Shown: in pieces, positions 8,995 through 53,612 of the stretch
Layout of the letters: each line of letters begins with the position of its first letter
How positions within the stretch are numbered: the first letter of the stretch is position 1
Assembly: GCA_036000965.1 (NCBI GenBank)
Contig: DASYUT010000152.1
Span: 1-53,612, forward strand
Length of the DNA: 53,612 nucleotides
Direction of reading: 5' to 3'
DNA from: Actinomycetes bacterium
GTDB taxonomy: Bacteria > Actinomycetota > CALGFH01
Notes under the pieces: model-generated
Databases searched by the model: none
Told to the model about the DNA's origin: nothing
The model's input: only the letters and a program-made list of their open reading frames with translations
Made by a program: the position numbers and the translations under genes

Positions 8995-10413
8995 GTGCCG
9001 AAGACCGTTCGTACCACCTATGCCTGCACCGAGTGTGGGACGTCGACCCCGCGCTGGGTCGGTCGCTGCCCCGGCTGCGGCGCCTGGAACACGCTGGTCG
9101 AGGAGGTCGTGGAGCGGGCCGGGCCGCCGCGGGCGTCCGGTCCGGTCGCCGCGGCCGTCGCCATCACCGACGTCGCCCCCCAGGTCGAGGCGCACCGCCC
9201 GACCGGCGTGGGCGAGCTGGACCGGGTGCTCGGCGGTGGCCTGGTCGCCGGCAGCGTCGTGCTGCTCGCGGGCGAGCCCGGCATCGGAAAGTCGACCCTG
9301 ATGCTCGGGGTGCTGGCCGGGCTCGCCGCCGAGGGCCGCGTCCTGTACGTCTGCGCCGAGGAGTCCCGCGAGCAGGTCCGCCTGCGCGCCGAGCGCCTGG
9401 ACGCCCTCCACCCGGACCTGCTCCTGGCCGCCGAGACCGACCTCGGCGCGATCCGCACGCTGATCGACGAGGTGCGCCCGCGGGTGGTGGTGGTGGACTC
9501 GGTCCAGACCGTGGCCGACCCGGAGCTGGCCGGCGCGCCCGGCGGCGTCGGCCAGGTGCGCGAGGTCGCCGCCCAGCTCGTCCGGCTGGCCAAGGAGCGG
9601 GGGATCGCCACCTTCCTGGTCGGCCAGGTCACCAAGGAGGGCGTGGTGGCCGGGCCCAAGACCCTCGAGCACGTCGTCGACGTGGTGCTGAACTTCGAGG
9701 GCGACCAGCACCACGCGCTGCGCCTGGTCCGCTGCACCAAGAACCGCTACGGCCCGGCGTACGAGGTCGGCTGCTTCGAGATGACCGAGGCCGGCCTGGT
9801 GCCCATGGCCGACCCCTCCCGGCTCTTCCTGTCCGCGCGCCAGACCGGGGTGCCCGGGGTGGTCTGCACCGTGAGCCTGGAGGGCCGCCGCCCGCTCGTC
9901 ACGGAGGTCCAGGCCCTGGTGGCGCCCACCGCCGCGCCGATGCCCAGGCGGACCGCGCAGGGGCTCGACCCCGGGCGGCTGGCGATCCTGGTCGCCGTGC
10001 TCGAGCGGCGGGCCCGGGTCGCCCTGGCCGGCCAGGACGTGTTCGCGGCGACCGCTGGCGGGGTGCGCCTGACCGAGCCGGCCGCCGACCTCGCCGTCTG
10101 CCTGGCGCTGGCCTCGGCCGCCCGGGAGTGGCAGGTGCCTGCCGACCTGGTCGCCTTCGGGGAAGTGGGGCTCGGCGGCGAGGTGCGCCAGGTGCCCCAG
10201 CTCCCCCGACGGCTGGCCGAGGCGGCCCGGCTGGGCTTCCGGCGCGCGCTCGTTCCGGCCGGCAGCGAGGCCCGGGCCGACGGCCTCGCGGTCGTGGAGG
10301 TCGACTCGGTGACCCACGCACTCTCCACCTTGCTCGCGTCCGGCCGCGCGCCGGCGCGGCCCGAGCGGCCGCCGGACGGCGCTGCCGTGCCGTCCACGGG
10401 GGGACGTCCATGA
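8995..10413 (+). CDS. radA: DNA repair protein RadA
   Basis: RecA-like ATPase that promotes branch migration during recombination. The N-terminal zinc finger is CTECG...CPGCG, Walker A is GEPGIGKST, the RadA-specific motif is KNRYG, and a Lon-protease-like C-terminal domain follows. The GTG at 8995 places the zinc finger about 10 residues in, as is usual, with GGGAG upstream; length is 472 residues. Its stop overlaps the disA start in an ATGA, so the two are translationally coupled, a common actinobacterial and firmicute pairing. Confidence 0.96.
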   Translation: MPKTVRTTYACTECGTSTPRWVGRCPGCGAWNTLVEEVVERAGPPRASGPVAAAVAITDVAPQVEAHRPTGVGELDRVLGGGLVAGSVVLLAGEPGIGKSTLMLGVLAGLAAEGRVLYVCAEESREQVRLRAERLDALHPDLLLAAETDLGAIRTLIDEVRPRVVVVDSVQTVADPELAGAPGGVGQVREVAAQLVRLAKERGIATFLVGQVTKEGVVAGPKTLEHVVDVVLNFEGDQHHALRLVRCTKNRYGPAYEVGCFEMTEAGLVPMADPSRLFLSARQTGVPGVVCTVSLEGRRPLVTEVQALVAPTAAPMPRRTAQGLDPGRLAILVAVLERRARVALAGQDVFAATAGGVRLTEPAADLAVCLALASAAREWQVPADLVAFGEVGLGGEVRQVPQLPRRLAEAARLGFRRALVPAGSEARADGLAVVEVDSVTHALSTLLASGRAPARPERPPDGAAVPSTGGRP

Positions 10414-11486
10414 CCTCCTCGCAGTTTGACGACCGGCTGATCCAGGCGCTCCAGCAGGTGGCCCCGGGTACCCACCTCCGCGAGGGCCTCGAGCGCATCC
10501 TGCGCGCGGAGAAGGGCGCGCTGGTCGTGCTCGGCGCTCCGCCGCAGGTGCAGGCGCTGTTCACCGGCGGCTTCCGGATCGAGGTCCCGTTCACCGCCCA
10601 GCGACTGTCGGAGCTGGCCAAGATGGACGGCGCCCTCGTGCTCGACACGGCAGCCAGGAACATCCTGTGGGCCAACGTCCACCTGATGCCCGACCCGGCC
10701 ATCCCGACGTCGGAGACCGGCACCAGGCACCGCACCGCCGAGCGGGTGGCCAAGCAGACCGGCGTGCCGGTGGTCACCGTCTCCGAGTCGATGCACATCC
10801 TCACCCTCTACCTGGACGACCTGCGGCACGTGTTCGACAACGTCGCCAACGTGCTCTCGCGCAGCAACCAGACGGTGCAGACCCTCGAGCACTACCGGGC
10901 CCGCTTCGACGAGCTGGCCGGCCACCTCACCGGCCTCGAGCTGGACGGGGCAGCCACCCAGCGCGACGTGCTGGCGGTCCTCGCCCGGGCCGAGATGCTC
11001 TGCCGCATCGCCGAGGAGCTGGAGCGCTACGTCGCCGAGCTGGGCGTGGACGGGCGCCTGCTGCGCCTGCAGCTCGACGAGCTGGCGGCCGGTGTCAACG
11101 AGGCGAAGATGCTGGTGGTGCGCGACTACCTGCCCACGCGGGACAGCCTGGACGTGTCCGGCGTGCTCGCGAAGCTGGCCGGGCTGACCCCGGAGGAGCT
11201 GTCGGACACGGTCGCCCTTGCCAAGGTGGTGAACCTGACCAGGGACCCCGAGGCGCTCGAGGCGGTGCTGGCCCCCCGCGGGTACCGGGCGCTCGCTAAG
11301 GTGCCCGAGCTGCCCGGCTGGGTGATCGACCGGGTGGCCGAGCGCTTCGGCTCCCTCAAGGTGCTGCTGACCGCGAGCCTGGAGGATCTCGAGGAGGTCG
11401 AGGGCATCGACCGCGACCGGGCCAGGCAGGTCCGGGACGGGCTCGGACGCCTCGCCGAGGCGTCGATGGTTGAGTATTACCCCTGA
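10410..11486 (+). CDS. disA: DNA-integrity scanning protein, diadenylate cyclase DisA
   Basis: Makes c-di-AMP from two ATP and scans DNA for lesions. The N-terminal DAC domain has the DGA motif (MDGALVLD) and the RHR motif (TGTRHRTAERV). A helical linker follows, then a C-terminal helix-hairpin-helix region (DLEEVEGIDRDRARQVRDGL). At 358 residues it is full length. It overlaps radA by four bases, so both are likely made together in DNA-damage control. Confidence 0.96.
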   Translation: MTSSQFDDRLIQALQQVAPGTHLREGLERILRAEKGALVVLGAPPQVQALFTGGFRIEVPFTAQRLSELAKMDGALVLDTAARNILWANVHLMPDPAIPTSETGTRHRTAERVAKQTGVPVVTVSESMHILTLYLDDLRHVFDNVANVLSRSNQTVQTLEHYRARFDELAGHLTGLELDGAATQRDVLAVLARAEMLCRIAEELERYVAELGVDGRLLRLQLDELAAGVNEAKMLVVRDYLPTRDSLDVSGVLAKLAGLTPEELSDTVALAKVVNLTRDPEALEAVLAPRGYRALAKVPELPGWVIDRVAERFGSLKVLLTASLEDLEEVEGIDRDRARQVRDGLGRLAEASMVEYYP

Positions 11487-38567: not shown

Positions 38568-40292
38568 TCAGTCGTGCGAGGCGTCCGGCTGCGGCTGCGC
38601 GGCCAGCCAAGCGACCAGCTCGGCTGCGGGCATCGGCCGGGCGAGGTAGTAGCCTTGCACGGTGTCACAGCCGAGGGTGGCCAGCTCCTGCCAGGTCGCC
38701 TCGTCCTCGACACCCTCGGCGACCACCCGTAGGCCCAGGTTGTGGCCGAGATCCACCGTCGAGCGGACGATCACCGCGTCGCTCTGGCTGTGGCGCAGGT
38801 GCGTTACGAACGAGCGGTCGACCTTCAATTCGTGCACCGGGAGGCTCTTGAGGTAGGCCATCGAGGAGTAGCCGGTGCCGAAGTCGTCGATCGCCAGCTG
38901 CACGCCCAGCGTGTGCAGGCGGTTGAGGATCTCCAGCGCCCGGGTCGGGTCGGTCATGATCGCGCTCTCGGTGATCTCCAGCACCAGGCGTTCGGGGGCG
39001 ACCGCGGTGTCCTCAAGCAGCCGGGCGATCTGGTCGGGCAGGGTGAGGTCGAGGAGGCAGCGGACGGACAGGTTGACCGCCACTGAGAGCTCGCGGCCGG
39101 CGTCCAGCCAGGCGCGGCACTGGCGCAGGGCGGCGTCGAGCACAAAGGAGGTGAGCGGGCGGATCAGCCCGGTTGTCTCGGCGAGCGGGATGAACTCGCC
39201 CGGGCCGAGCAGGCCGTGCTCGGGGTGCTGCCAGCGCACCAGCGCCTCGACGCCGAGGATCCGCGCGGAGCGTACATCGGCCTTGGGCTGGTAGTGCACC
39301 ACCAGCTCGCCGGCCGCGAGCGCGCGGCGGAGCTGGCCGAGCAGGCCGAGCCGCCGCGGACTGTGCTGGTCGAGGGTGGGGTCGTAGACCGTGTATCCGG
39401 CGTGGGCGGCCTTGGCGGCGTACATCGCCACGTCGGCGCGCTGCAGCAGCTCGTCAGCGTCGGTGGCGTGGTCGGGGTAGGTCGCCACGCCGATGCTGGC
39501 GTCGATATCCAAGGTCAGCCCGCCGACCGTGAACGGCGCCTCGATCGCCGCGCTGAGCTTGTCGGCAACGGCAGTCGCGTCTTGGACGCTGGCGATCTGC
39601 GGCAGCAGCACGGCGAACTCGTCGCCGCCGAGGCGCGCGACCGTGTCGCTGTCGCGCGTGGTGCCGTGCAGGCGTTCGGCGACCTGTTGCAGGAGCAGGT
39701 CACCGTGGTGGTGGCCGAGGGTGTCGTTCACCTCCTTGAAGCGGTCCAGGTCAACCAGCAGCAGCGCGGCGGTCAGACCCTGCCGGCCGGCGAGACGCAG
39801 CGCCTGCTGGGTGCGGTCGTGGAGGAGGGTGCGGTTGGGCAGGCCGGTGAGCTGATCGGAGAACGCATGGCGGGTGAGGGCGCGCTCGAGCTGCTTGCGC
39901 TCGCTCACGTCGCGCAGGGTGAGCAGCACCCCGCGCACGGCCTCGTCGCCGAGCAGGTTGCGGCCTAGACCCTCGACATCACGCCAGGTGCCGTCCGGCC
40001 GGCGCAGGCGGAACTCGACCACCTCCTCGCAGCCCGCAGTGCCGAGCAGTTGCTGCAGCTTGGCGGTGAGGTGGCTGGCGTCGTGGGGGTGGACGTGGCG
40101 CTGGACGAACGCCGCCATCGGATGCCCGTGTAGCTCGTCGGCGGGCAGGTGCAGCACTCGCGCGGCCGACGAGCTGACGTAGGCGACCTCGCCGGCTGCG
40201 CCGAGCACGATGGTGGTGTCAGAGGATCCGGCCAGCAGCGCGTGGAAGCGGCGCTCGTCGTGCTCGCGCAGCTGATCGCGACCGCCAGGCAC
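38568..40292 (-). CDS. PAS-GGDEF-EAL c-di-GMP turnover protein (3' half of a FIST-linked gene)
   Basis: 574 residues from a possible GTG at 40292. PAS domain (RRFHALLAGSSDTTIV), intact GGDEF (RLGGDEFAVLLPQ) and intact EAL (GVEALVRWQ, with DDFGTGYSSMAYLKS and KVDRSFV), so both cyclase and phosphodiesterase motifs are present. The upstream FIST sensor is in another frame, overlapping by 328 bases. The natural protein is probably FIST-PAS-GGDEF-EAL, broken by a frameshift near 40260-40290, or it restarts at the GTG. Frame choice is firm after ~40270. Confidence 0.85.
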   Translation of the reverse strand: MPGGRDQLREHDERRFHALLAGSSDTTIVLGAAGEVAYVSSSAARVLHLPADELHGHPMAAFVQRHVHPHDASHLTAKLQQLLGTAGCEEVVEFRLRRPDGTWRDVEGLGRNLLGDEAVRGVLLTLRDVSERKQLERALTRHAFSDQLTGLPNRTLLHDRTQQALRLAGRQGLTAALLLVDLDRFKEVNDTLGHHHGDLLLQQVAERLHGTTRDSDTVARLGGDEFAVLLPQIASVQDATAVADKLSAAIEAPFTVGGLTLDIDASIGVATYPDHATDADELLQRADVAMYAAKAAHAGYTVYDPTLDQHSPRRLGLLGQLRRALAAGELVVHYQPKADVRSARILGVEALVRWQHPEHGLLGPGEFIPLAETTGLIRPLTSFVLDAALRQCRAWLDAGRELSVAVNLSVRCLLDLTLPDQIARLLEDTAVAPERLVLEITESAIMTDPTRALEILNRLHTLGVQLAIDDFGTGYSSMAYLKSLPVHELKVDRSFVTHLRHSQSDAVIVRSTVDLGHNLGLRVVAEGVEDEATWQELATLGCDTVQGYYLARPMPAAELVAWLAAQPQPDASHD

Positions 40293-41221
40293 CCGGCGCC
40301 GGTGTCCTGGCCGCGGCGGGCCTGCCGCCCGGCCGTCGCGGCGCCTTCCACCAACCGGTCGAAGTTCGCCCGCATCAGCTGGACCCGGCCGCCTTGCGGC
40401 ACGTCGCCAGCGAAGGTCATCGACTGCTCGGCCTCGTCGACCGCCAGGACGGTGCGGACCAGCCCAGCCCCGCCGTCGTCGGCGCACAACGCCAGGGGGA
40501 ACAGCAGCGCCGTGGCGGGCAGCCCGGCCGCACGGTCGCCCAGGTACCGTCTGTACAGCGCCAGCGCGGGCTCGCCGTCCAGTTCGTACAGCACGTTGCC
40601 GTCCGAGCGGGTCACCTGCCGCTCCACCCCGAAGCTGTCCCAGCCACCCCGCGAGCCATGCCCGACCTGGATCAGGTCGCCGTACAGGCCGACCGCCGAG
40701 ACGACCCCGGCGGTCGGGCGGCCTTGGCACACTACCCACGTGGCCGCGAAGCGGTCGCCGTCGCCAGCGAGCCCGCCGCTGACCACCACACCGGCAGGCA
40801 GCACCTCCTTGACGCCGTTGAGCAGCTCGGTGCCGTTGACCCGCAGCCCGTCGGACAACACCAGCACCCCGCGCAGTCCCGGCGCGACCAGCGCCCCTGC
40901 CAGTTCACGGCCCGCCCGCCGCGAGTCGGTCGGGGCCGCGACGTCCACCTCAGCGCGCCGTAGGGTGGTGTGGGTGAAGCGGGCGACGGCCACGCTCATG
41001 CCGCCGTCTGCCACCCGCCGGTCCAGGATCTCCCCGGCGGTCGAGCAGCCGGCCAGCTGCGCCTGCGGCAGCGCCGCCGCGAGCTCGGCAAGCCGCGCCG
41101 CCGCCACCTCCTGCGGAGGCGACCCGAACGCCAACACCAGCGTCGAGGGTCCGTCGAGCTTGCCGGGCAACGGGGCTGACCAGCCGGTCGACGGCTCCCA
41201 TGCAAGCAACCGGACGTCCAT
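39965..41221 (-). CDS. FIST sensory domain, frame-disrupted from GGDEF-EAL
   Basis: The first ~318 residues are a FIST domain pair: FIST_N (LAWEPSTGWSAPL, STLVLAFGSPP, LAGCSTAGEI) and FIST_C (ATALLFPLALCADD...VQLMRANFDRLVEGA). Homology stops at CLAVAISC near 40270; the usual VGRRLVLGQR tail is missing and the remaining ~100 residues are out-of-frame PAS/GGDEF sequence. FIST domains are thought to bind amino acids or small ligands. The open frame is real, but its tail is an artefact of the frameshift or deletion. Confidence 0.75.
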   Translation of the reverse strand: MDVRLLAWEPSTGWSAPLPGKLDGPSTLVLAFGSPPQEVAAARLAELAAALPQAQLAGCSTAGEILDRRVADGGMSVAVARFTHTTLRRAEVDVAAPTDSRRAGRELAGALVAPGLRGVLVLSDGLRVNGTELLNGVKEVLPAGVVVSGGLAGDGDRFAATWVVCQGRPTAGVVSAVGLYGDLIQVGHGSRGGWDSFGVERQVTRSDGNVLYELDGEPALALYRRYLGDRAAGLPATALLFPLALCADDGGAGLVRTVLAVDEAEQSMTFAGDVPQGGRVQLMRANFDRLVEGAATAGRQARRGQDTGAGCLAVAISCASTTSAASTRCWPDPLTPPSCSAQPARSPTSARRPRECCTCPPTSYTGIRWRRSSSATSTPTTPATSPPSCSNCSALRAARRWSSSACAGRTAPGVMSRV

Positions 41222-41555
41222 GCACGAGCTCCTCCAGCAGGGCCGGGCCCGGTCACGGTCCGGCGTTCGTCTGGATCATCGACACGACCAGGCACGGACA
41301 TGAAGATCCCGATGCGCTGGCCGCCGGCGGGTCAAGGCAGCTCCCGACCGTCACAAGTCCGCCGCGAGCTGCCTGGCCGGCTGGCTTGCGACCCCTCCAC
41401 GGCACCAGACAGGGCCAAGGGTGGGTGGACAGGCTCAGCCCTCGCGAGGTCGGAGGTGCGGCCTGAAGCTGGGGGCGGCAGCACCAGGCAGTCGTCGCCG
41501 ACCACCAAAGTCGAGGCGGCTGGTCGCCAGATGCAACAGTGTCTCCGAACCTGCC
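41222..41555. other. Intergenic region, no gene seen
   Basis: 334 bases between the FIST start and the lipoprotein stop, both on the - strand. No convincing coding frame, repeat or RNA structure was noted; it presumably holds the promoter of the FIST gene. Confidence 0.5.
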
Positions 41556-42506
41556 TCATGGCGATCGCTTGGCCGGTGCGGAGCCGGCGAACACCTCCTT
41601 GGCAGTGCTCCTCGCGTGCTCGTCGAGCTTCATCGCCTGCGCACTGGCCTCGGCCAGCCCCTGGGGCGTCAACTGGATGACGTTGACCAACGCTTCCTTC
41701 TCCTGCTCGCCGCCGGAGTAATTGGGCTCGGTGGCGATGGCGCCCACACCAGCGGCGTAGTACTTGAACTCGCTGCCTGCCTCGAGGATGGCCAGCACAT
41801 TCGAGAAGCACCGGAAGGGGACGCACTTGGACTTGCCAAGCTTCGCCACCTCGGCGGTGAGGATCTCGCGACCGGGAATGCGGGCCTGCACGTACGAGGG
41901 CATCCCCACCTTCGGGTCGGCCATCATGGCGATGCCCGCCGTGGCCCCCTTCACGCCGGCTAGCCAGGCGTCGTTGGCGTTCACGAACTGACCGCCCTCG
42001 TAGCTCTCGGTGTACGACCCGAGGTACCAGACGTTGCCGTACTTGTCCTGGGCGTAGTAATCGAGTGCCTGCTCGGCGATCTGACCCGCGTCGATGTCCT
42101 GGTCGAGGACGAGCACCGTACGCACCCCGTTCACCTCCTTCAAGACGTCGGTGACGGTGTAGCGGCGCCGGTGATGAAGCTTCCTGTGGCCACGGAAGAG
42201 CGTACCGTCCCTCACTGACTGGTAGCCGGGGACCAACGGCAGCCAGGCATTGGCATCACCAACCGGCTTACCGAAGTCTTTCGGGTCGAACTTGTCGGGG
42301 TCGGCGTTGACCCGAGGCGCGGCCCTCGTGGTGGCCGTGGACGTCCCGGTCGGGGAAGACCTCGAAGATGTGGTCTCCTGGCGAGCAGCCGCGGTGGACG
42401 CCGGCGTCGACGACGTTCGGCTGTCACATCCGGCGACGGCCGCCGCGAGGCAGATCGCGGCCGCCAGGGCAACGATCGTGCCGCGCGGTCGTGGTTCCTC
42501 AGCCAT
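41556..42506 (-). CDS. Secreted lipoprotein of unknown function
   Basis: 316 residues. The signal peptide has a hydrophobic core and lipobox LAAAVAGC, so it should be anchored outside the membrane. A Ser/Thr-rich linker follows (about residues 30-65). The C-terminal domain starts NADPDKFDPKDFGKPVGD and contains YYAQDKYGNVWYLGSY, CVPFRCF and YYAAGVGAIATEP; it reads as a beta-rich ligand- or surface-binding fold. I do not recognise a family. It is next to, but 264 bases away from, the ABC permease stop on the same strand. Confidence 0.75.
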   Translation of the reverse strand: MAEEPRPRGTIVALAAAICLAAAVAGCDSRTSSTPASTAAARQETTSSRSSPTGTSTATTRAAPRVNADPDKFDPKDFGKPVGDANAWLPLVPGYQSVRDGTLFRGHRKLHHRRRYTVTDVLKEVNGVRTVLVLDQDIDAGQIAEQALDYYAQDKYGNVWYLGSYTESYEGGQFVNANDAWLAGVKGATAGIAMMADPKVGMPSYVQARIPGREILTAEVAKLGKSKCVPFRCFSNVLAILEAGSEFKYYAAGVGAIATEPNYSGGEQEKEALVNVIQLTPQGLAEASAQAMKLDEHARSTAKEVFAGSAPAKRSP

Positions 42507-42770
42507 ACGCTCGACGGTAACACGTCGCTCCCTGAAGAGAACCTGAACGCGCCCTCACGAGGGTCACCTCACCTGACGGCGGCGAACGGCCAGGCCGGGA
42601 GCAGGCCCTTCATCGATGGCACAGTGATCGCCACGGGAGGAACACCGCTCGCGTTGGGAGTGCGCTCGGTGGTCACCGTCGCTCGCGGCGGGCCGTCGTC
42701 AGTGACCCCGAGATGCGCGGGGCGCCTGAACCACTCCGGAAACGCTCTCGCGGCTCATCGGTATCTGGGG

Positions 42771-45700
42771 CTACTCGTCGCGCAGGAGCTCCGTGGGAGG
42801 CAGGCGGTTGATCAGCGTGGTGGCCGCGAGCGATGCGACCAACGACACACCCAGGACGAGCGCCGTGAGGGTGGCGATCCCGGTTGCCGGGATCACGATC
42901 GGCGGGCGCAGCACGAACAGCGGGCGCAGCACGTTCACGAGGAAGTACGCCATGCCGCCACCGACGAGCAACCCAGCCACGCATCCGAAGACCACGACCC
43001 CACCCGCCTCCATGACGAGGAGGGATCGGATCTCGCCGGCATGCATCCCCTGGGCGCGCAGCGTGACATACTCCCTCCTCCGCTGGAGGAGCAGCCCGAA
43101 CACGAAGACCGTGATCGCGGTCGCCGCCATGGCCAACGCGTAGGCAGAATCAAGCGTCAGCAGGCCGCGGATGTTCAGCGCCGCCAGGCTCGACTGGTCT
43201 TTGTCGAGTGTGGTTTCCCGCGTGTCGATCTGCAGCGCGTCGACGGACCCTGGGCCGTCGCGAAGGGCCGAGACCGCTCGCTCCAGCGTGACGGAATTGG
43301 GGTCGGTCGTCCGCGCCAGGAAGAAGCTTGCGTTGGTCGAGGGAATGAGGCTCACCTGTCGCTGGAGGTTGGCGAGCACATCGGCGCCTTCAGGGAAGCC
43401 GGGGAGACGCTCGAACAGCCCGATGACCTTCATATCCGACAGCTTCTGCTCCTTCGTCCCGCGGGCGAACAAGACCTGCACCGGGTCGCCGGGTCCGAGC
43501 GCGAGGAAGTCGGCGAGATCGGTACTGACGAAGACGCCGCCCGGGTCGCGCCTCAGGGCGTCCATCGCGCTCGCCGCCGTCCGGTCGACGAAGTTCGAAT
43601 CGGCGAGCGCCGCGACACGTCCGAAGGTGGCGGGATCGACCGCGGCCATGTTGGCCGCGTCCTCGTTGAACTCGCTTTGCAGGACGGCGTTCTGCAGGCT
43701 GAACACCACCGGGGTCGCCGTCTGGACGCCGGGGACATCGAGCGCGTCGACATATCCCGGCGGATGCTCGACCGTGCTCGTCGGACTCGGCGTCACCCGC
43801 ACGTCGGATCCGACGACGAATCTCGCGTCCGCCGCCTTGGCCCGGTTGTACGACGCGGTGAACGAGGCGACGCTCGTCCCGAGGGCGAAGATCAGCCCGA
43901 CGATGATCACCCCGCCAGTGGCAGCCCAGGAGCGCCGGCGGACGCTGCGGGTCAGGATCCCCCAGAGCGGCCGGCCGAAGCGGGGCGGGGTCGGCAGCGG
44001 CAGGCGGGAGAAGAACCGCTCGACCACCCGCGCCGAGAGAAGGATGCCTGCGATCCAGACGCCGATCGGAACGATCACCAGATGCATCCGGAGGGACACG
44101 GACCGTCCGTTGTAGACCGAGCCAGCGGCGCCCTCGAAGGCGCCGGCGCGCAACGCGACCCCTTCGGCGACCGCTACGATCACCAGCGCTGCGATGTCGA
44201 GCCGGAGACGCCGCCAGGCGGGCGGGCGCGACGAGAGCTGGGCCCGTTCTTCGCTGATGTCCCGGTTGATGGCGCGACGGCCCGAGGCGTACAGCGCTGC
44301 GCCGGTGGCGAGGAATCCCCCGCCGGCACCCAGCAGCGCCGAGGCGACGAGGCTGGTGGTCGGGGCGCGGGCCAGCGCATCCGCGGAGAGGACGGCGATG
44401 GCGGAGGCCATCCCGAGGCCGAGACCGATTACCGAGCCGGCGCCGGCGAGGGCGAGCGTGCGCAGGGCGTGCATGCGGAGCAGGTGCCGGCGGTTGGCAC
44501 CGCGGACACGCAGGATCGCTTGCTCGCGTCGTAGTGCGTTGGCCAGGACGCCGCCTGCGTACGCCGCGAGGATCGCGGCTAGGAGGGCGCCGGGCACGCC
44601 GAGGAACACGAACATGCGCTTGGCGACGCGGGCGTCGTCGCGTGCGACCTGAAGGGTGTTGGAGATGTTGTCGATTAGGTAGTCCTGGCCGGGCGCGATA
44701 TCGGTGACGGCGCTGGCGGCCGCCTTGGTCTGCGCGAGCGCGGTTCCCGGATCGGCGTCGAGCCGCTCGCGCTCGACGCCGATGTCGACCTCGAGGATCG
44801 GATTGCTCTTGACGACGTCGCCGCTGGTCGTCGTCGCCTTCTGGAAGGCGGACACGATCGCCCTGGCGAACACCTCCGGTTCGATCACCACAGCGTTCGG
44901 GACGTAGAGGAACTGCTCGAGCTGCTGGCCCTGCCGGCTGTAGAAGAGGGACTTGGCCCGCGACAGATCGGTGATCCCGCTGATCGGGACGGACAGGGGC
45001 CTGTCGAGGCCGGGCACGTCGACGCGAACGACGTCGCCGGGCTTGACCGACAGCGCCTTGGCCGCCTCCGCGCTGAGCAGGCCGTGACCCGGTTGATACG
45101 ACCCGCTGACGATCTGGATCGAGTCGTTGTGCTCGCGGTACAGGTCGTCGAAGCCGAAGACGCGCACCGCCCCGGCCGCCTGCTTCGAGCCCGATCGGAG
45201 CGAGCCGGGCGCGAGGTCGACGAAGGACAGCTGGTCGGCCGTTACAACGCCGGGTACCTCGGCGATCCTGCGGGTCAGTTCGGCCAGCCCCACCGGACCG
45301 GGCGCGTTGGCCTGGACCGGTGCGTCGATCTCGCGGCTGGAGAAGGTCGCACGGAGATCTAGTGACGTGACCGAGTTCACGGCCGACCTCGCCGCCGCGC
45401 TGTAGGCCACCGTCACGCTCGTCTTCGGGGGTACCGTGCCCAGGTTGAGGCCGAGCTTGGCCGCGCCTTGGGCGAGGGGACTGTCCCCCCCGCGGTCGGC
45501 GACGCGAGCCCCGTCGATCGTCGTCGAGCCGGGGACGTAGGTGAGGGGCGCCGGAGGCTCGTCCCGGATGACGACCTCGTTGGCGGGCCGTGCGCTGTCG
45601 TTGGCGAGGACGAGCTCGACACGCGCGGTGTCGCCGGGCTGGAGCCGCGCGGCGGGTGTGACCCGCTCGGCCAGTCGGATCTCCTCACCGAGTGGGGCCG

Positions 45701-45884
45701 TCAGTATTCGCTGCATGTCGAGGGGAAGCGGCGCGATGGCGCGTTGGGTCATCGACGCCGAGGAACCGTCGATGAAGAAGAGGACGGCCGAGAACAGACC
45801 GACACCGAGCGTGATCCCGGCGAGCGTCGCCAGGCTCCTTCTCGGGTTACGGGCGAGGTCGCGCCAGACGTACCTAGCGATCAT
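42771..45884 (-). CDS. MacB/FtsX-type ABC permease with extracytoplasmic DUF11-like domain
   Basis: 1037 residues. The first helix is at residues ~18-40, then a large exterior part begins with a DUF11-like Ig-like segment (GDTARVELVLANDSARPANE, then PPAPLTYVPGS). FtsX-like helices lie at ~430-560 and after ~600, with a second exterior domain, and three C-terminal helices. The ATG at 45884 overlaps the ATPase stop by 11 bases. It likely forms an exporter or a mechanotransmission system with the two ATPases. The DUF11-like insert is unusual. Substrate unknown. Confidence 0.86.
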   Translation of the reverse strand: MIARYVWRDLARNPRRSLATLAGITLGVGLFSAVLFFIDGSSASMTQRAIAPLPLDMQRILTAPLGEEIRLAERVTPAARLQPGDTARVELVLANDSARPANEVVIRDEPPAPLTYVPGSTTIDGARVADRGGDSPLAQGAAKLGLNLGTVPPKTSVTVAYSAAARSAVNSVTSLDLRATFSSREIDAPVQANAPGPVGLAELTRRIAEVPGVVTADQLSFVDLAPGSLRSGSKQAAGAVRVFGFDDLYREHNDSIQIVSGSYQPGHGLLSAEAAKALSVKPGDVVRVDVPGLDRPLSVPISGITDLSRAKSLFYSRQGQQLEQFLYVPNAVVIEPEVFARAIVSAFQKATTTSGDVVKSNPILEVDIGVERERLDADPGTALAQTKAAASAVTDIAPGQDYLIDNISNTLQVARDDARVAKRMFVFLGVPGALLAAILAAYAGGVLANALRREQAILRVRGANRRHLLRMHALRTLALAGAGSVIGLGLGMASAIAVLSADALARAPTTSLVASALLGAGGGFLATGAALYASGRRAINRDISEERAQLSSRPPAWRRLRLDIAALVIVAVAEGVALRAGAFEGAAGSVYNGRSVSLRMHLVIVPIGVWIAGILLSARVVERFFSRLPLPTPPRFGRPLWGILTRSVRRRSWAATGGVIIVGLIFALGTSVASFTASYNRAKAADARFVVGSDVRVTPSPTSTVEHPPGYVDALDVPGVQTATPVVFSLQNAVLQSEFNEDAANMAAVDPATFGRVAALADSNFVDRTAASAMDALRRDPGGVFVSTDLADFLALGPGDPVQVLFARGTKEQKLSDMKVIGLFERLPGFPEGADVLANLQRQVSLIPSTNASFFLARTTDPNSVTLERAVSALRDGPGSVDALQIDTRETTLDKDQSSLAALNIRGLLTLDSAYALAMAATAITVFVFGLLLQRRREYVTLRAQGMHAGEIRSLLVMEAGGVVVFGCVAGLLVGGGMAYFLVNVLRPLFVLRPPIVIPATGIATLTALVLGVSLVASLAATTLINRLPPTELLRDE

Positions 45885-46569
45885 CGGATGCCAACGATCC
45901 TGTAACGCGCCCGTCGCGGAGCCCGATGCGCCGGTCCATCCGGCTCGCTGCGCCCGGGTCATGGGTGACCATGACGAGCGTCGCGCCGATCTCGCGCTGC
46001 ACCTCGAGAAGCAGGTCGATGACAGCTGCGGCGTTCGCGGCGTCGAGCGCGCCGGTCGGCTCGTCGGCGAGGATGACCTCGGGCCGGTGCACGACCGCTC
46101 GGGCCACCGCCGCACGTTGGCGCTGGCCGCCCGAAAGGTGGTCGGGAAGCCGGTGCGCCTCGTTCGCAAGGCCGAGCTTGTCGAGCAGGTCGAGGGACCG
46201 GTCCACGGCGGTGGATTCTCCGTCGAGGGCGAACTGAAGCCCGACGTTCTCGACGACGGTGAGGAACGGGAGCAGGTTGTCGGCCTGGTAGACGAACCCG
46301 ACGTGGGTGCGCCGGAAGTCGGAGCGCCGGCGCTCCGACAGCGACGAGATCTCCTCCCCGCCGATCCGCACGGCGCCCGCGGTCGGGAGGGCGAGACCCC
46401 CGAGGACTCCGAGCAGCGTCGACTTGCCGCACCCGCTGGGTCCGGTGACCGCCACGCTCGACCCGGCGTCGACCGTGAAGGAGACCCCGTCGAGCGCGCA
46501 AACGGGGCCACTCGCTGTGGCGTGCTCGACCACCACTGACTCGACGTGGATCGACGCGTCCATGGTCAC
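45874..46569 (-). CDS. ABC transporter ATP-binding protein (LolD/MacB-type), A
   Basis: 231 residues. Walker A GPSGCGKST, signature LSGGQRQR, Walker B VILADEPTGALD and His switch VTHD are all intact. The X-loop-type DNLLPFLTVVENV is characteristic of MacB/LolD ATPases. The GTG at 46569 overlaps the stop of the preceding ATPase gene (GTGA); an ATG at 46563 is the alternative. It should energise the permease at 42771-45884. Confidence 0.93.
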   Translation of the reverse strand: MTMDASIHVESVVVEHATASGPVCALDGVSFTVDAGSSVAVTGPSGCGKSTLLGVLGGLALPTAGAVRIGGEEISSLSERRRSDFRRTHVGFVYQADNLLPFLTVVENVGLQFALDGESTAVDRSLDLLDKLGLANEAHRLPDHLSGGQRQRAAVARAVVHRPEVILADEPTGALDAANAAAVIDLLLEVQREIGATLVMVTHDPGAASRMDRRIGLRDGRVTGSLASDDR

Positions 46570-47258
46570 GCCGGCACGATCCGGCGGTCGGCGAGGCGCA
46601 GCGAGTGCTGGGCCTCGCGGGCGAGCTGCTCGTCGTGGGTCACGTACAGGACGGCGAGGTCGCGCTCGCGAGAGGCGGCGAAGATGAGTTCGGTGACATA
46701 CGCCGCGGTGGAAGAATCGAGCTGTCCGACGACTTCGTCGGCGAGCAGGAGGTCCGGTTCGTTGGCGAGCGCCACGGCCACTGCCACCCGTTGCGCCTCC
46801 CCACCGGACAGCTGCCGCGGGAGATGGTCCATGCGGTCACCGAGCCCGAGCTCGGACAGCAGCTCTCGGGCTCGGCTCATCGACCGGCGACCCGGAGCGA
46901 AGCCTCTGGCCAGCTCCACGTTTTCGACGGCGGTCAGGAACGGGAGCAGGTTGTCGGCCTGGAGGACGACGCCGATCCGCTCAGCGCGAAGCCTCGCACG
47001 GCCGGCCTCGTCCAGCTTGTTCGTCTGCTGCCCACCAATGTGGATGTGTCCGGCGTCGGGACGCATGAGCCCGGCGATCAGCGAGATGAGGGTGGACTTC
47101 CCACTTCCCGATCGGCCGACCAGGCTCGTGGTCTCGCCGCACCGGAGGTCGAGGTCGACCCTGTCGAGCACGTGGAGCTGGTTCGGACCGGTGCCGTAGG
47201 ACTTCGACACCCCCTCGAGGCGCACGAGCGGTGGCGAGTGTCGCTGGGCGTTGCTCAC
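46566..47258 (-). CDS. ABC transporter ATP-binding protein, B, altered Walker B
   Basis: 230 residues. Walker A GRSGSGKST and signature LSGGEAQRVAVA are intact, with the same DNLLPFLTAVENV region as ATPase A. The D-loop region reads LLLADEVVGQLDS: the catalytic Glu is kept but the usual Pro-Thr after it is Val-Val. The GTG at 47258 lies 14 bases after the FxLYD stop. Two ATPases with one large permease suggest a heterodimeric motor. Confidence 0.9.
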   Translation of the reverse strand: MSNAQRHSPPLVRLEGVSKSYGTGPNQLHVLDRVDLDLRCGETTSLVGRSGSGKSTLISLIAGLMRPDAGHIHIGGQQTNKLDEAGRARLRAERIGVVLQADNLLPFLTAVENVELARGFAPGRRSMSRARELLSELGLGDRMDHLPRQLSGGEAQRVAVAVALANEPDLLLADEVVGQLDSSTAAYVTELIFAASRERDLAVLYVTHDEQLAREAQHSLRLADRRIVPA

Positions 47259-47272
47259 CTGGCCCTGTCCGC

Positions 47273-48436
47273 TCAGCCGCCGGGCGTGAGGAGGTCCTTG
47301 GGATTGGCGTAGACCTCGGACTTTGCGACCCCCGCCAGGGTGGTGGAGGTGTCGAGCAGCACCGGGACCGACCCGCCGGCGGGGACGACGTCGACGTTCT
47401 CGGCCTGGCCGCCGATGATCCGCCCGGCCTGGTCGTAGTAGACCGCGACGACGTCGGCGCCGCTGAGGGGTTGTCCGAGCGTGGAGTGCAGGGTGGCGGT
47501 GGTCGTCAGCTTGCCCGCCACGAACGAGGTCCGCACGCCGTCCGCGCTGAGGTTGCCTGCCAGGCCCTGCGCGGGCGCCCAGCTGCCGCCGAGGATCTGC
47601 ACGCGCAGCCCGGTCACCCCTGTCGCGCTGGTGGTGTCGGCGACCGCGGCCGTCTGCCCGGGCAGTAGTGCGTCGAGCCCCTCGTCCTTGATCTTGACGG
47701 TGGCGCCGTTGGCGCCAGTGAAGGTGAGGACCGCGCGAACGTCCACCGCGACCTGGTCGTTTCTGGGGTTGCGGAGCACCACGGCGTAGATCACCTTGGC
47801 GTCGCCGTCGGCCTGGGGTGGGAGCTGGGTGAACCCTTGGCGCACGGCCTGGACGGTGCCGGCCCCGGTCCCAGCAGCCACGCCCGCCTGGCTGGTCTGG
47901 CTCGCGCCGGCCGTCTGGCCTGGCGTCACGCCTGCCTGCGCCGTCCCTGCCGCGGGCCCGGTCGGGGCCGTCGTGGCCTTGTGGCTGCCGGTGAGCGAGG
48001 GCCGCGCCAGGGCGGCGACGGCCACCAGCGCGACGACCGCGGCGGCGGTGCCGACCACCACGCCGGTGCGCGGACGGCGGCGCCTGGACTGCGCGCCCAC
48101 CGTTGGCGGCTCGCCGGCCTCCGACCGGCGCGCCCGCGCCCACGCCGGGGCGTCGAGCGGCAGCGGCACGAACTGCTCGGTTCGCTTGCTCCGGTTCACG
48201 GGCCGCTCGGCCGATCCCGCTGGCGAGCCCTGTGCCGGGCGTTCCTCCACCGCCGCAGAGGCCGGTTGCGCGTGCGCCGCCACCGGCGCGGTCTGCGACG
48301 CGGCCGTCTCGGGCGCCACGACCGGCAGCTCCGCGGTCGGTTCCGCGGCCGGTTCCGCAGGCTCCGCCTCGCCCGGCGCACCGTACTGCTCGACGGGCTT
48401 GTTCATCCCGGTGTCCCTCGGAGACTCGGTGGCCAT
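47273..48436 (-). CDS. Single-pass membrane protein with FxLYD-like domain
   Basis: 387 residues. A long Ala/Pro/Glu-rich cytoplasmic part with Arg-rich SRRRRPRTG precedes one helix (VVVGTAAAVVALVAVAALA) at about residues 125-145. A Gly/Ala/Thr-rich linker leads to an exterior FxLYD-like fold (KVIYAVVLRNPRNDQVAVDV, then VVAVYYDQAGRIIGG). The ATG at 48436 has GGGGAGG at 7-base spacing and is preferred to one 24 bases upstream. It is the first gene of the ABC operon and may be its accessory or sensor. Confidence 0.8.
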   Translation of the reverse strand: MATESPRDTGMNKPVEQYGAPGEAEPAEPAAEPTAELPVVAPETAASQTAPVAAHAQPASAAVEERPAQGSPAGSAERPVNRSKRTEQFVPLPLDAPAWARARRSEAGEPPTVGAQSRRRRPRTGVVVGTAAAVVALVAVAALARPSLTGSHKATTAPTGPAAGTAQAGVTPGQTAGASQTSQAGVAAGTGAGTVQAVRQGFTQLPPQADGDAKVIYAVVLRNPRNDQVAVDVRAVLTFTGANGATVKIKDEGLDALLPGQTAAVADTTSATGVTGLRVQILGGSWAPAQGLAGNLSADGVRTSFVAGKLTTTATLHSTLGQPLSGADVVAVYYDQAGRIIGGQAENVDVVPAGGSVPVLLDTSTTLAGVAKSEVYANPKDLLTPGG

Positions 48437-48783
48437 GATGATGCCTCCCCGTTTGCACATCGGCCTGCTTGCACCGCTTCAGTATCCGGCCGGCCCGACG
48501 CCGATTCGCTGCTGTCTGGGAAGATGTTCCTCCCGGACGGTGCTGGCAAGGAGGAATGCGATACAGGCGGCTGGCCGAGGCGTCGCGCAGCGGCAACAGT
48601 GCGGAGCGCCGGCCGGGGTCGTCGAGGTCATCGGTCCTCCGCAGGTGTCCTGCGCCAGTTCTTCGGGAGAGGTGGCAGTCGCGTGAGAGGTGGCAGTCGC
48701 GTAAGGATGTAATCAACTGACCGCCGGCGAAGCAACAGGCACCTCGCGGCGCGGCCGGCGCCGATGGTGCCCGCACGACGTGA
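48437..48783. repeat. Intergenic region with a perfect tandem 18-bp repeat
   Basis: 347 bases upstream of the FxLYD gene and downstream of the GH15 gene (both - strand). Two identical 18-base copies occur at 48667-48684 and 48685-48702. A short + strand open frame here lacks any coding evidence; nothing else was recognised. Confidence 0.6.
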
Positions 48784-50748
48784 TCAGGGCTGACGCTGCC
48801 GGGGCGGGATGAACTGCAGCGTGGGTCTGGGGTCCTCGGCACGGATCAGGTGCATCACCGCATTGATGAGCGCCAGGTGGGTGAATGCCTGGGGGAAGTT
48901 GCCCAGGTGCCGGCCAGTGCGCGGGTCCAGCTCCTCGGCGTACAGCCCCAGCGGGCTGGCGTAGGACAGCAGCTTCTCGCACAGCTGTCTGGCCCTGGCC
49001 ACTTCGCCGACCTCGACCAGGGCCGACACCAGCCAGAACGAGCAGATCGTGAAGGCGCCCTCCTCGCCCGCGAGCCCGTCGTCGGTCTGGTCGGTCCGGT
49101 AGCGCAGCACCAGCCCGTCGATGCTCAGCTCCTCGGCCACGGCCAGGACGGTGGCGCGGACGCGTTCGTCGTCGGCCGGCAGGAAGCGGACCAGCGGCAG
49201 CAGCAGGACCGAGGCGTCCAGCGCGGTGGTGTCGTAGTGCTGGACGAACACCCCACGCGCGTCCAGGCCCTTGGCCAGGACGTCGGCGTGGATCTCGTCG
49301 GCCGCCTTCTGCCAGCGCTCGGCGCTGTCGGGCTCGTCGTGCAGCCGGGCCAGCCGCGCCCCGCGGTCGCAGGCGACCCAGCACATCAGCTTGGACGAGG
49401 TGAAGTGCCGCGGCGGTCCGCGCAGCTCCCAGATGCCCTGGTCGGGCTCGTGCCAGTGCTCGATGGCCTGCTCCACCTGCCGCTTGAGGGCCGGCCACAG
49501 GTGCTCCGGCAAGTGGTCGCGTGACTTGGCGTGCAGCCAGACCGAGTCCAGCACCGCCCCCCAGACGTCGTTCTGGCGCTGCCGGCAGGCGGCGTTGCCG
49601 GTCCGCACCGGCCGGGCACCCTGGTAGCCGGACAGGTGCTCCAGGGTCGACTCCGGCAGCTCCCGTTCCCCCCCGACGCCGTACATGATCTGCAGGTCCT
49701 CGTCGCCGGCGCTGGCGTCGGCGACGAAGTAGAAGAAGTCGTTGGCCTCCCGGTCAAGGCCAAGGGTGTACAGGCCCCACAGCGCGAAGGTGGCGTCGCG
49801 GATCCAGGTGTAGCGGTAGTCCCAGTTGCGCTCCCCGCCCGGGGTCTCGGGCAGGGAGGTGGTGGCGGCGGCCAGCAGCGCCCCGGTCGGCGCGTAGGTC
49901 AGCCCCTTGAGGGTGAGGGCGCTGCGTTGCAGGTAGCCCTGCCAGGGGTGGTCGGGGAACTCGCCCTGGTTGATCCACTGCCGCCAGTACTCGGCGGTCT
50001 GCCACATCCGCTCGGCGGCGTCCGCCCAGGTCCGCGGCGGCGCATGCTCCGACCACGACAGCGCCGCGAACACGTCGTCGCCTTCGGTGAGTCGGGTGCG
50101 GGCGCGGGCGCCGCGCCCCTCGAAGCCGAGGCGGAGATTCGTCGTCAGCCGCAGCTCCAGCTCGCCGCCGGGCGCGACGGCGACCGCCTCGCCGTAGCCC
50201 TCGCCGACGTAGGCCCACTGCGCCGGGACGCGCCCGTAGTCGAACACCGGCTCGCAGTCCAGCGCGAGCTCCACGCTGCCGTTCACGCACCGCACCGTCC
50301 GCAGCAGCACGTGCTCTGGCTCGTAGTCGGCCGGGGCGCGGCGGTGGGTCGTCAAGCGGCGCTGGTCGTGGTACCAGCGGCATACGCACAGCGCGTCACG
50401 GACGATCAGCCAGCCGGTCCTGGTCTTCCAGGTCGTCTCGACCATGAGCGAGCCGGGCAGGTAGCGACGGGCGGCAGGCACGGCCACGTCGGCCGGGCCG
50501 ATCCGGAAGCCGCCTGCGGCGCGGTCCAGGATGGCGGCGAACACGCTCGGGCTGTCGACCCGCGGCAGGCACAGCCACTCGACGTTCCCGCCCGGGGCGA
50601 CCAGCGCGGTGACCTCGCAGTCAGACAGGAACGCGTACTCGGCGATCGGCGGGAACGGGCTGTGCGTGGCCGGTTCGCCGCCCCAGCCCTGGGCGGGCGG
50701 GTCGGTCGCGGCGCGGCCGCGTGCGCCGCGAGTGGCCCTCATGCTCAT
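48784..50748 (-). CDS. GH15 glucosidase (trehalase/glucoamylase family)
   Basis: 654 residues. The N-terminal beta-domain starts PIAEYAFLSDCEVTALVAPG. The (alpha/alpha)6 catalytic barrel contains RDATFALWGLYTLG, the general-acid motif GIWELRGPPRHFTSSKLMC plus WVACDRGARLAR, and a C-terminal Glu in LYAEELDP. It fits GH15 trehalase-type enzymes of mycobacteria and glucoamylases; the two cannot be separated here. No signal peptide is visible, so it is probably cytosolic. The ATG at 50748 follows GAGG at 10-base spacing; an in-frame upstream start would add 31 Arg-rich residues. Confidence 0.88.
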   Translation of the reverse strand: MSMRATRGARGRAATDPPAQGWGGEPATHSPFPPIAEYAFLSDCEVTALVAPGGNVEWLCLPRVDSPSVFAAILDRAAGGFRIGPADVAVPAARRYLPGSLMVETTWKTRTGWLIVRDALCVCRWYHDQRRLTTHRRAPADYEPEHVLLRTVRCVNGSVELALDCEPVFDYGRVPAQWAYVGEGYGEAVAVAPGGELELRLTTNLRLGFEGRGARARTRLTEGDDVFAALSWSEHAPPRTWADAAERMWQTAEYWRQWINQGEFPDHPWQGYLQRSALTLKGLTYAPTGALLAAATTSLPETPGGERNWDYRYTWIRDATFALWGLYTLGLDREANDFFYFVADASAGDEDLQIMYGVGGERELPESTLEHLSGYQGARPVRTGNAACRQRQNDVWGAVLDSVWLHAKSRDHLPEHLWPALKRQVEQAIEHWHEPDQGIWELRGPPRHFTSSKLMCWVACDRGARLARLHDEPDSAERWQKAADEIHADVLAKGLDARGVFVQHYDTTALDASVLLLPLVRFLPADDERVRATVLAVAEELSIDGLVLRYRTDQTDDGLAGEEGAFTICSFWLVSALVEVGEVARARQLCEKLLSYASPLGLYAEELDPRTGRHLGNFPQAFTHLALINAVMHLIRAEDPRPTLQFIPPRQRQP

Positions 50749-50854
50749 GCTGTCAGCACCTCGCTCTTCGGGCCGGCGGGGTGGTCTGGCCAGCCCTTGA
50801 TCGCGCCGTGGCCGCCTGCCCGGCTCATTCGCCGCCCACATCGTTCGGTGACCG

Positions 50855-51803: not shown

Positions 51804-52952
51804 TCAGGGGGTGAGGGTGGTCAGGGCGAGCCGCCGCTGGCGGAGCCCGGTGATGATCTGGGGCAGGGCGGCCACCGTGGCCGAGCGGTCCCCGCCGCCG
51901 TCGTGCAGCAGCACGATCGCACCCGGCCGGGCGGCGCCGAGCACCCGGCTGGTGATCTGCGCGGCGGTGGTCCCCGGCTGCCAGTCGGCCGGGTCGACCG
52001 ACCACAGCACCGTGCGCAGCCGCTCCCGGCTGGCTGCGGCCAGCACCGTCGGCGACCAGCCGCCCCCAGGCGGCCGGAACAGGCTGGGGTGCATGCCGAG
52101 CCCGGCCAGGGTGGCCGCGCCCTGGCCGATCTCGGCGCGCATTCGGTCGGGCGGCAGGGCGGCGAACCCCTGCGGGTGGCTGAACGAGTGGGTGCCGACC
52201 GTCATGCCCGCCCGCACCTCCTGTCGGACCAGTTCCGGGTGGCGCAGAACCTGGCGGCCGACCACAAAGAAGGTGGCGGGTGCGTGCGCCTGCCGCAGGA
52301 TGGCGAGCACCTTGGCGGTCGAGTCCGGCCAGGGCCCGTCGTCGAAGGTGAGCGCGACCGCCCGGGGCACGTGCCGGGGGCCGCTGGGCACGAACACCGC
52401 GCCGGCCAGCCGCCCGGAGATCGAGCCGCTTGTCAGCACCTCGTGGCCTGGCCCGGTGACCAGCGTGCCCTGCGGGTTGCGGGGCTGGTCCGGCCCTACC
52501 GGCGGCAGCAGGGTGCGCCGCACCGGCTCGACCCGGTCCCGGCCGGCCAGCAGCGTGACCCGGTCGTCGCGCTCCAGCGGGGTGGCGGCCGGGGCGGGGC
52601 GGCCGTTGAGCAGCACCCGACCCGGGTAGACGGCCGGCCGCAGCACGGTCCGGTCGACCGCCAGCAGGCTCCCCGCCGGTGGGCGCAGACCCAGCTGGGC
52701 CACGCAGCCGGCCAGGGTCGTGCCGGCCGGCAGCAGGCGCCGCCGCCCCAGCACGCTGACCGCGATCGGGAGCGGCCCGTGGGTGCTGCTCACCGTCAGC
52801 GGTGGTGCCGGCAAGGTCGTAGCCGGTCCGGACCGGCCTGGGGGTGACGGCTCGGCAGCGCCGCTGCCGGCGAGCAGGGCCGCCGCGAGCAGCACCAGCA
52901 GCGCCGGACGGACCCGGTGGACAAGCGGCCAGTCCGGCCAGCGGAGCTGCAT
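51804..52952 (-). CDS. Exported polysaccharide deacetylase (NodB family)
   Basis: 382 residues. Arg-poor hydrophobic N-terminus (RPALLVLLAAALLAGSGA) gives an export signal or anchor. A ~90-residue beta-grasp-like region precedes the NodB domain: TFDDGPW (catalytic Asp and metal Asp), THSFSHPQG (metal His pair), RPPGGGWSP (catalytic Arg; usual aromatic replaced by Gly) and VLLHDGGG. It likely removes acetyl groups from peptidoglycan or other cell-wall sugars. The ATG at 52952 was chosen because it directly precedes the signal peptide. Confidence 0.88.
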   Translation of the reverse strand: MQLRWPDWPLVHRVRPALLVLLAAALLAGSGAAEPSPPGRSGPATTLPAPPLTVSSTHGPLPIAVSVLGRRRLLPAGTTLAGCVAQLGLRPPAGSLLAVDRTVLRPAVYPGRVLLNGRPAPAATPLERDDRVTLLAGRDRVEPVRRTLLPPVGPDQPRNPQGTLVTGPGHEVLTSGSISGRLAGAVFVPSGPRHVPRAVALTFDDGPWPDSTAKVLAILRQAHAPATFFVVGRQVLRHPELVRQEVRAGMTVGTHSFSHPQGFAALPPDRMRAEIGQGAATLAGLGMHPSLFRPPGGGWSPTVLAAASRERLRTVLWSVDPADWQPGTTAAQITSRVLGAARPGAIVLLHDGGGDRSATVAALPQIITGLRQRRLALTTLTP

Positions 52953-53196
52953 GGCCGGCAGCCTACTACGTCTGGCCGGCCCTGCCCGTAAGCGGGCCAG
53001 CGACCAGGGCCTCGTTGCGGCAACCGCGGCGCGGACCGTACTCCACCCGGCGCGGACTGGCCACCCTGAACTGCGAGGATGGCACCGGGCTTCGATTCCC
53101 AGCCAACTTCCAGGGAGCTTTGAAGTCGGGCACAGGTCTCGCCGCCACCATCGTCCTACCCGGCTCGACAGGAGCCATCGACGAAGGAGGCACGAC

Positions 53197-53612
53197 ATGG
53201 ACAACACCAGCGAGCGTCGCGGCTGGCGGCGCTGGGGTGGTGCGGCGGCGCTCGTCGCCAGTGGGCTCTTGGTTGGCGGTGTGCTGGCGGGAACGCTGAC
53301 CGCAGGCGCGGCCAGCACGACCACCAGCGCGGCGGACCCGTACGCCGCGACCGCGCCTGGGGCCGCGCCGCGGGGCGGCGCCGTTGACGAGTCGAAGAGC
53401 CAGCGGCCGGACGAGAAGCTGCTTACCGGGGACACTGCCAGCAAGGTTCGGGCGGCGGCCCTGGCCAAGTACCCGGGCGCGACCGTGCTGCGGGTGGAGA
53501 CCGACTCCGACGGCGTCTACGAGGCCCACCTCACCACCGCGAGCGGGGAGCGGGTCACCGTCGAGGTCGGCAAGGACTCCAAGGTGACGGGCCTGGAGTC
53601 CGCGCCCCGCCG
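53197..53612 (+). CDS. PepSY-like exported protein, 3' end outside window
   Basis: The open frame runs off the end after 138 codons. AAGGAGG lies 6 bases before the ATG at 53197. A hydrophobic segment (AAALVASGLLVGGVLAGTL) forms a signal or membrane helix after an Arg-rich start. The exterior part has an LTGDTASKVRAAALAKYPGA helix and GVYEAHLTTASGERVTVEVG plus KDSKVTGLE, matching a PepSY domain. Such domains are often protease inhibitors. It is divergent from the deacetylase. Confidence 0.82.
   Translation, partial: MDNTSERRGWRRWGGAAALVASGLLVGGVLAGTLTAGAASTTTSAADPYAATAPGAAPRGGAVDESKSQRPDEKLLTGDTASKVRAAALAKYPGATVLRVETDSDGVYEAHLTTASGERVTVEVGKDSKVTGLESAPR

Follow-up and report, generated by a model that had tools for sequence, protein, structure and literature searches.

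The window, a stretch of 53,612 nucleotides from an actinobacterium, carries a minus-strand run of five genes that raises a simple question: what kind of ABC machine is encoded here, and which of the genes belong to it? A preliminary description had listed four parts packed in one operon, namely a large FtsX-type permease with a DUF11-like exterior domain, two non-identical ATPases and a membrane-anchored FxLYD protein. We found that three of these four genes form a conserved set, that the fourth was misassigned, and that the corrected system has a testable partner rule. The features are listed here in the order of the run.

47273..48436, minus strand: FxLYD-like protein, 387 aa, with one transmembrane segment (residues 122-150) and an outer part that contains an FxLYD-like domain.
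46566..47258, minus strand: ATPase B (upstream slot), 230 aa, GTG start, with GRSGSGKS, LSGGE, catalytic DE and H-loop histidine; DEVVG replaces DEPTG.
45874..46569, minus strand: ATPase A (downstream slot), 231 aa, with GPSGCGKS, LSGGQ, DEPTG and H-loop histidine.
42771..45884, minus strand: permease, 1037 aa, double FtsX type with about 10 predicted transmembrane helices, a MacB_PCD-type outer domain and a DUF11-like insert (from profiles, alignment, hydropathy and a low-confidence model).
45312..45710, minus strand: DUF11-like insert, permease residues 59-191 (from alignment and profile matches; beta-rich in the low-confidence model).
41556..42506, minus strand: lipoprotein partner, 316 aa, with the lipobox AVAGC and a predicted YmcC/LolA-type barrel, in the clade of operonic partners.

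The reading frames of ATPases B and A overlap by 4 bases and those of ATPase A and the permease by 11 bases. The FxLYD gene precedes ATPase B by 14 bases, and the lipoprotein gene follows the permease on the same strand after a gap of 264 bases. The preliminary description covered 42771-48436; the co-conserved LolA-like lipoprotein gene sits just outside that range and was missed. A scan of 41000-48900 returned no promoter-like site, a result that says little, and four terminator-like sites against 2.2 expected; none of these falls between the permease and the lipoprotein, which also says little. Upstream of the system, profiles identify a GH15 gene (48784-50841) and a polysaccharide deacetylase (51804-53468). 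At 38568-41221, the ORFs 39965-41221 and 38568-40739 resemble, by eye, one sensor-GGDEF-EAL gene split over two frames. The window genome has 10 WhiB matches, and in a control set of 14 genomes such matches were found in Corynebacterium only, which identifies the host as an actinobacterium.

The permease is of the FtsX type, as had been proposed, with two FtsX stretches and a MacB_PCD domain over the Pfam cut-offs (FtsX 69.5 bits, cut-off 25.5; MacB_PCD 33.4, cut-off 27). Hydropathy analysis gave nine clear hydrophobic regions, and a further helix region appears in the structural model, which is poor (mean pLDDT 48) and usable for secondary structure only; the helix count suggests a resemblance to YbbP-type double permeases. 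When compared with solved structures, the permease profile matched YtrF, LolF, LolE, LolC, YbbP and MacB, all weakly (E 3e-6 to 6e-3), and the permease itself reached only 18.7 of 622.3 bits with the NCBIfam profile for ADOP duplicated permeases (TIGR03434). The system has the features of a type VII ABC machine: FtsX-type transmembrane domains, a MacB_PCD-type outer domain, and ATPases that belong to the LolD/MacB/FtsE group and carry the catalytic motifs.

The insert is a 133-residue block that follows the conserved PLDxQ stretch behind TM1 and precedes the first outer domain; in alignments it is absent as a clean block from the DUF11-less relatives. The window copy scores 22.5 bits with PF01345, just under the cut-off of 24.6, and 28.4 bits with TIGR01451, a DUF11-type repeat profile, over the cut-off of 24. 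Six other permeases carry the insert (DUF11+); five of these exceed the Pfam cut-off (26.9-30.6), and the copy from Cryobacterium gelidum (L010) lies under it (23.4). Thus, the DUF11-like assignment of the exterior domain holds in profile search.

Both ATPases are present and non-identical, and ATPase B does contain the DEVVGQLDS stretch that had been pointed out. Their best NCBIfam matches are LolD for ATPase A (202.2 bits) and YbbA for ATPase B (198.3), both under the equivalog cut-offs; with the LolD profile alone, the two score 202.2 and 190.5 against an equivalog cut-off of 307.75. Walker A, signature, catalytic DE and H-loop histidine were found in each. We considered whether DEVVGQLDS makes ATPase B a dead enzyme and rejected the idea, because Walker A, LSGGE, the catalytic DE and the H-loop histidine are all present. 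DEV in place of DEP also occurs in four of the five other DUF11+ up-slot ATPases that were compared; the fifth, from C. gelidum, has DEA.

In a tree of 58 ATPase rows from 29 systems (loci L149 and L150 are not in it), the up-slot and down-slot copies are split by one branch, with support of 97/89 and presence in 98% of bootstrap trees. The distinction between the two ATPases therefore predates the divergence of these systems, and the pair has been retained since. The natural reading of these sequences is that ATPases A and B would form a heterodimer. With a strict signature pattern, matches were obtained for 6 of the 29 up-slot ATPases and for 24 of the 29 down-slot ones. Most of the others that were inspected have SGGE or SGGQ with different flanking letters; this second look hit the wrong place for the up-slot copy of L068 and the down-slot copy of L070, and says nothing either way about those two. 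DUF11-less up-slot copies mostly have LSGGExxR, without the usual Q. The up-slot ATPases of L108, L109, L111, L112 and L113 carry AEVS or AEIS after Walker B, where the others have GxLD or GxVD; in these five, one ATP site may be weakened.

Among named genome contigs, two relatives were found, one in MAG nzgw112 (L009, 55% identity) and one in C. gelidum (50%). At E 1e-40, the permease family was found in 14 of 246 genomes of a phylum sample, and a DUF11+ profile matched 16 of 396 genomes, five of which, among them the window's genome, match along the full DUF11+ length. A sample of Cryobacterium's class gave 18 of 296, with DUF11+ length in Cryobacterium only; fragment G366, without its N-terminus, is unclassifiable. 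The compared set comprises 32 systems, 7 DUF11+ and 25 DUF11-less. Four fragmentary permease matches (G244, G298, G331 and G366) were left out of the counts, and G657, an apparent duplicate of G406 by contig number and position, was not added. Both ATPases are linked to the permease in 31 of the 32 systems, the last (L110) being cut by the contig end.

The partner gene differs with the insert. All seven DUF11+ systems have a LolA-like lipoprotein, which lies directly upstream of the up-slot ATPase in six (the C. gelidum copy in two frames); these upstream genes end at or over the start of ATPase B. Among the DUF11-less systems, the same slot holds a PsbP-like secreted protein in 24 of 25, the 25th again being L110 with its cut contig, and six of these 24 had served as seeds for the PsbP-like profile. 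Pfam PsbP was matched at E 0.1 or better by 7 of 12 members scanned, the best at 4.9e-5, which is borderline; against the PDB, the only matches of these partners were weak ones located in the leader (E 0.13 or worse). When residues 1-120 of each open frame were scanned loosely, a lipobox-like pattern turned up in about 20 of the 24, and the L072 partner has a plain leader without cysteine. MAG nzgw112 has a tandem arrangement of a DUF11+ and a DUF11-less system, and each of the two is preceded by its own partner gene. The second of these (L009, 12064-16989) is the DUF11-less one; its upstream partner is a PsbP-like lipoprotein, and an extra LolA-like copy lies downstream.

In an unrooted permease tree, the DUF11+ sequences group in a single clade (100/100); L074, with its permease in two frames, was omitted from this tree only. 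Therefore, insert and partner change together on one branch, as one joint change that has been kept since. Because this is one event on the tree, the counts of 7 and 24 are not 31 independent observations.

The FxLYD-like protein behaves differently from the other three genes of the preliminary description. It does have one hydrophobic segment, together with a long N-terminal part and no lipid anchor, and its FxLYD-like domain falls just under the cut-off of the NCBIfam profile NF038353 (21.0 bits, cut-off 23); no Pfam match was found at E up to 1. A search of 12 genomes found it in its own genome only, the 11 others being 9 carriers of the permease family and 2 members of the window's family. 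At E 0.001, its outer 205 residues gave matches in 7 genomes out of 396, its own and six more, and none of these six belongs to the 16 genomes with a permease match. On these grounds (1 of 12 genomes, and an outer part whose six other matches do not co-occur with the permease matches) we rejected FxLYD as a conserved subunit. The proposed four-gene set is thus borne out for the permease and the two ATPases, which share one operon, and fails for FxLYD, which was not found with the relatives and is thus refuted as a member by the linkage test that the preliminary description itself had set; the lipoprotein gene is co-conserved instead. FxLYD holds the slot that the lipoprotein occupies in the six other DUF11+ systems, and the lipoprotein has moved downstream in the window. 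FxLYD may be a recent addition to this operon.

A model of the lipoprotein, built from seven rows, is confident over residues 71-316 (pLDDT block means 79-97). Its best match is the YmcC-like structure 3fzx (VIA Z 11.5, rmsd 4.0, 172 aligned; Foldseek E 5.4e-05, prob 1.00, TM 0.33/0.47), followed by lipoprotein 4fvs (Z 11.0), DUF1849 (10.1), RseB (8.5), VioE (8.4) and LmcA (7.7). LolA 2w7q reached Z 8.4 (rmsd 4.3, 151 aligned), near the level that unrelated models reach according to the tool's note, and autotransporter barrels matched at Z 7.0-7.7. Foldseek gave two matches only with E < 0.001, LolA not among them; the LolA and LolB chains came at E 0.01-0.07. The partner is therefore predicted to have a YmcC/LolA-type barrel, with a moderate fold match. 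We take most of these matches (YmcC-like, RseB, LolA and so on) to belong to one LolA-like superfamily. Sequence searches gave no PDB match, nothing meaningful in Pfam or NCBIfam and no sequence kinship to LolA, and the profile search found no known enzyme or hydrolase profile.

In a tree of 36 members of the lipoprotein family (again without L149 and L150), the window copy falls among six operonic ones, itself included, with support of 100/96 and apart from the 30 other members, one of which is a second copy beside the Cryobacterium system. The family also occurs without ABC genes: 20 of 20 other chosen loci have no permease nearby, some of them on short contigs, and 36 of 246 genomes have the lipoprotein family versus 14 of 246 with the permease. 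Two further LolA-like family members in the window's genome, L116 (C206) and L126 (C258), lie away from the operon. In C. gelidum, the split upstream lipoprotein gene (L010, 4531-5551) may reflect a sequencing error, phase variation or decay, and an intact LolA-like relative lies downstream of the system (10205-11125). Upstream of the DUF11+ system in G682 there is a second LolA-like lipoprotein gene (L149, 2-937).

What would such a system do? Passages of PMC12646458 describe type VII machines as doing ATP-driven work outside the membrane and class them by their partner proteins; in the account given there and in PMC9595528, LolCDE extracts lipoproteins and delivers them to LolA. The reading we favor, to which we give slightly less than an even chance, is a type VII (MacB/LolCDE/YbbAP-like) ABC machine with paired unlike ATPases that hands hydrophobic cargo to its own lipoprotein. 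The large permease would consist of two FtsX-type halves joined, seated on two different ATPases. Binding and hydrolysis of ATP by the pair would drive motions of helices and outer domains, by which a hydrophobic molecule, either a lipid or a lipoprotein's lipid anchor, would be extracted from the outer leaflet and given to the partner lipoprotein, with the DUF11-like insert as the likely dock for this partner. We infer the physical contact, the cargo, the direction and the docking role by analogy. Linkage is no proof of contact, and both the occurrence of the lipoprotein family away from ABC genes and the broken gene order of the window weigh against this reading. So do the moderate fold match, the similar fold of the sensor RseB, the C. 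gelidum lipoprotein gene in two frames, the poor permease model and the envelope-acting genes near some systems.

The main rival, which we judge unlikely, is signalling or activation of the FtsEX or RseB kind, in which ATP-driven motion would switch the lipoprotein between states and the lipoprotein would regulate a wall enzyme, a protease or a sensor, with nothing carried. According to PMC12646458, mechanical action on a partner is common among type VII systems, which suits this idea. The lipoprotein fold is also matched, at Z 8.5, by RseB, a stress sensor, and with the polysaccharide deacetylase and GH15 genes in the window and a sortase near L066, a cell-wall role is possible. However, in a scan of 10 neighbour ORFs (taken from L066, L067, L068 and L009), no such envelope gene recurs, and none of the ORFs matched a profile for histidine kinases or peptidoglycan hydrolases. 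Moreover, the LolA-type barrel is best known for carrying hydrophobic cargo.

Detoxification of the MacB/BceAB kind is less probable again. A membrane-active antibiotic or peptide would be removed and the compound captured outside by the lipoprotein; the MacB_PCD and FtsX domains, and a permease profile that reaches MacB and YtrF, are consistent with this, but the scanned part of the neighbours contains no histidine kinase, resistance profile or MacA-like gene. We find it very doubtful that FxLYD took over as the working partner in the window lineage, leaving the downstream lipoprotein as a leftover. Its position in the partner slot, immediately before ATPase B, would fit such a takeover, yet the lipoprotein gene has an unbroken reading frame, belongs to the operonic clade and has remained adjacent in the same orientation, whereas FxLYD is unmatched in the 11 other genomes, 9 of them with the permease family, and has its long N-terminal part and transmembrane segment instead of a lipid anchor.

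The favored hand-over of hydrophobic cargo can be taken one step further, to a Lol-like transfer of lipids or lipoproteins outside LPS bacteria, in which obligate unlike ATPases would drive a double permease and DUF11 would set the carrier (LolA-like with the domain, PsbP-like without it). We put this forward tentatively and consider it somewhat unlikely. If it is true, then partner choice in type VII machines is modular and readable from sequence. The comparison amounts to a natural experiment, with one outer domain tied to one partner class within one phylum and even in tandem in L009, and the dependence of partner type on the presence of an outer domain hints at how such machines choose their cargo. 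It would also mean that a LolA-type barrel, as predicted here, is wired to an ABC machine in actinobacteria. To our knowledge, actinobacterial lipid traffic outside mycobacteria has been little studied.

Among the papers returned by literature searches, no title or abstract opening described this system; the DUF11-FtsX match that we examined concerned other DUF numbers, and no match was found for PsbP with FtsX and lipoprotein. The preliminary description was right that this is not a standard LolCDE or MacAB, as there is one double-FtsX chain, two unlike ATPases and no fused ATPase, and its suggestion of a cell-envelope machine stays the best reading. MacAB-TolC shares the FtsX and MacB_PCD domains; MacB has a fused ATPase and the partners MacA and TolC, whereas the ATPases here are separate genes, not fused to the permease. 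YtrBCDEF of Bacillus subtilis includes a related permease with a solved structure, YtrF, and two ATPases, YtrB and YtrE; as far as we know, it has several permeases and no LolA-like lipoprotein. YbbAP-TesA, with a single permease of about 10 transmembrane helices (a number also predicted here) and a dedicated outer partner, resembles the present system, but it has one ATPase kind and a hydrolase partner in place of two ATPases and a lipoprotein without an enzyme profile. According to PMC12646458, YbbAP probably extracts hydrophobic molecules from the membrane on behalf of TesA.

LolCDE with LolA/LolB, which works on the outer leaflet (PMC9595528), is similar to the present system in its type VII permease, its LolD-like ATPases and a partner whose barrel resembles the one predicted here. 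In contrast to LolC plus LolE and two copies of LolD, the system here has one double permease, a single 1037-aa chain that reaches 23.9 of the 362.45 bits of the lolCE equivalog profile, and two unlike ATPases from two old clades; it also has the DUF11 insert and an actinobacterial host. The DUF11-less sister systems of Actinomycetota share the order secreted partner, ATPase, ATPase, permease, with permeases that are 24-28% identical, and differ in having no DUF11 insert and a PsbP-like partner.
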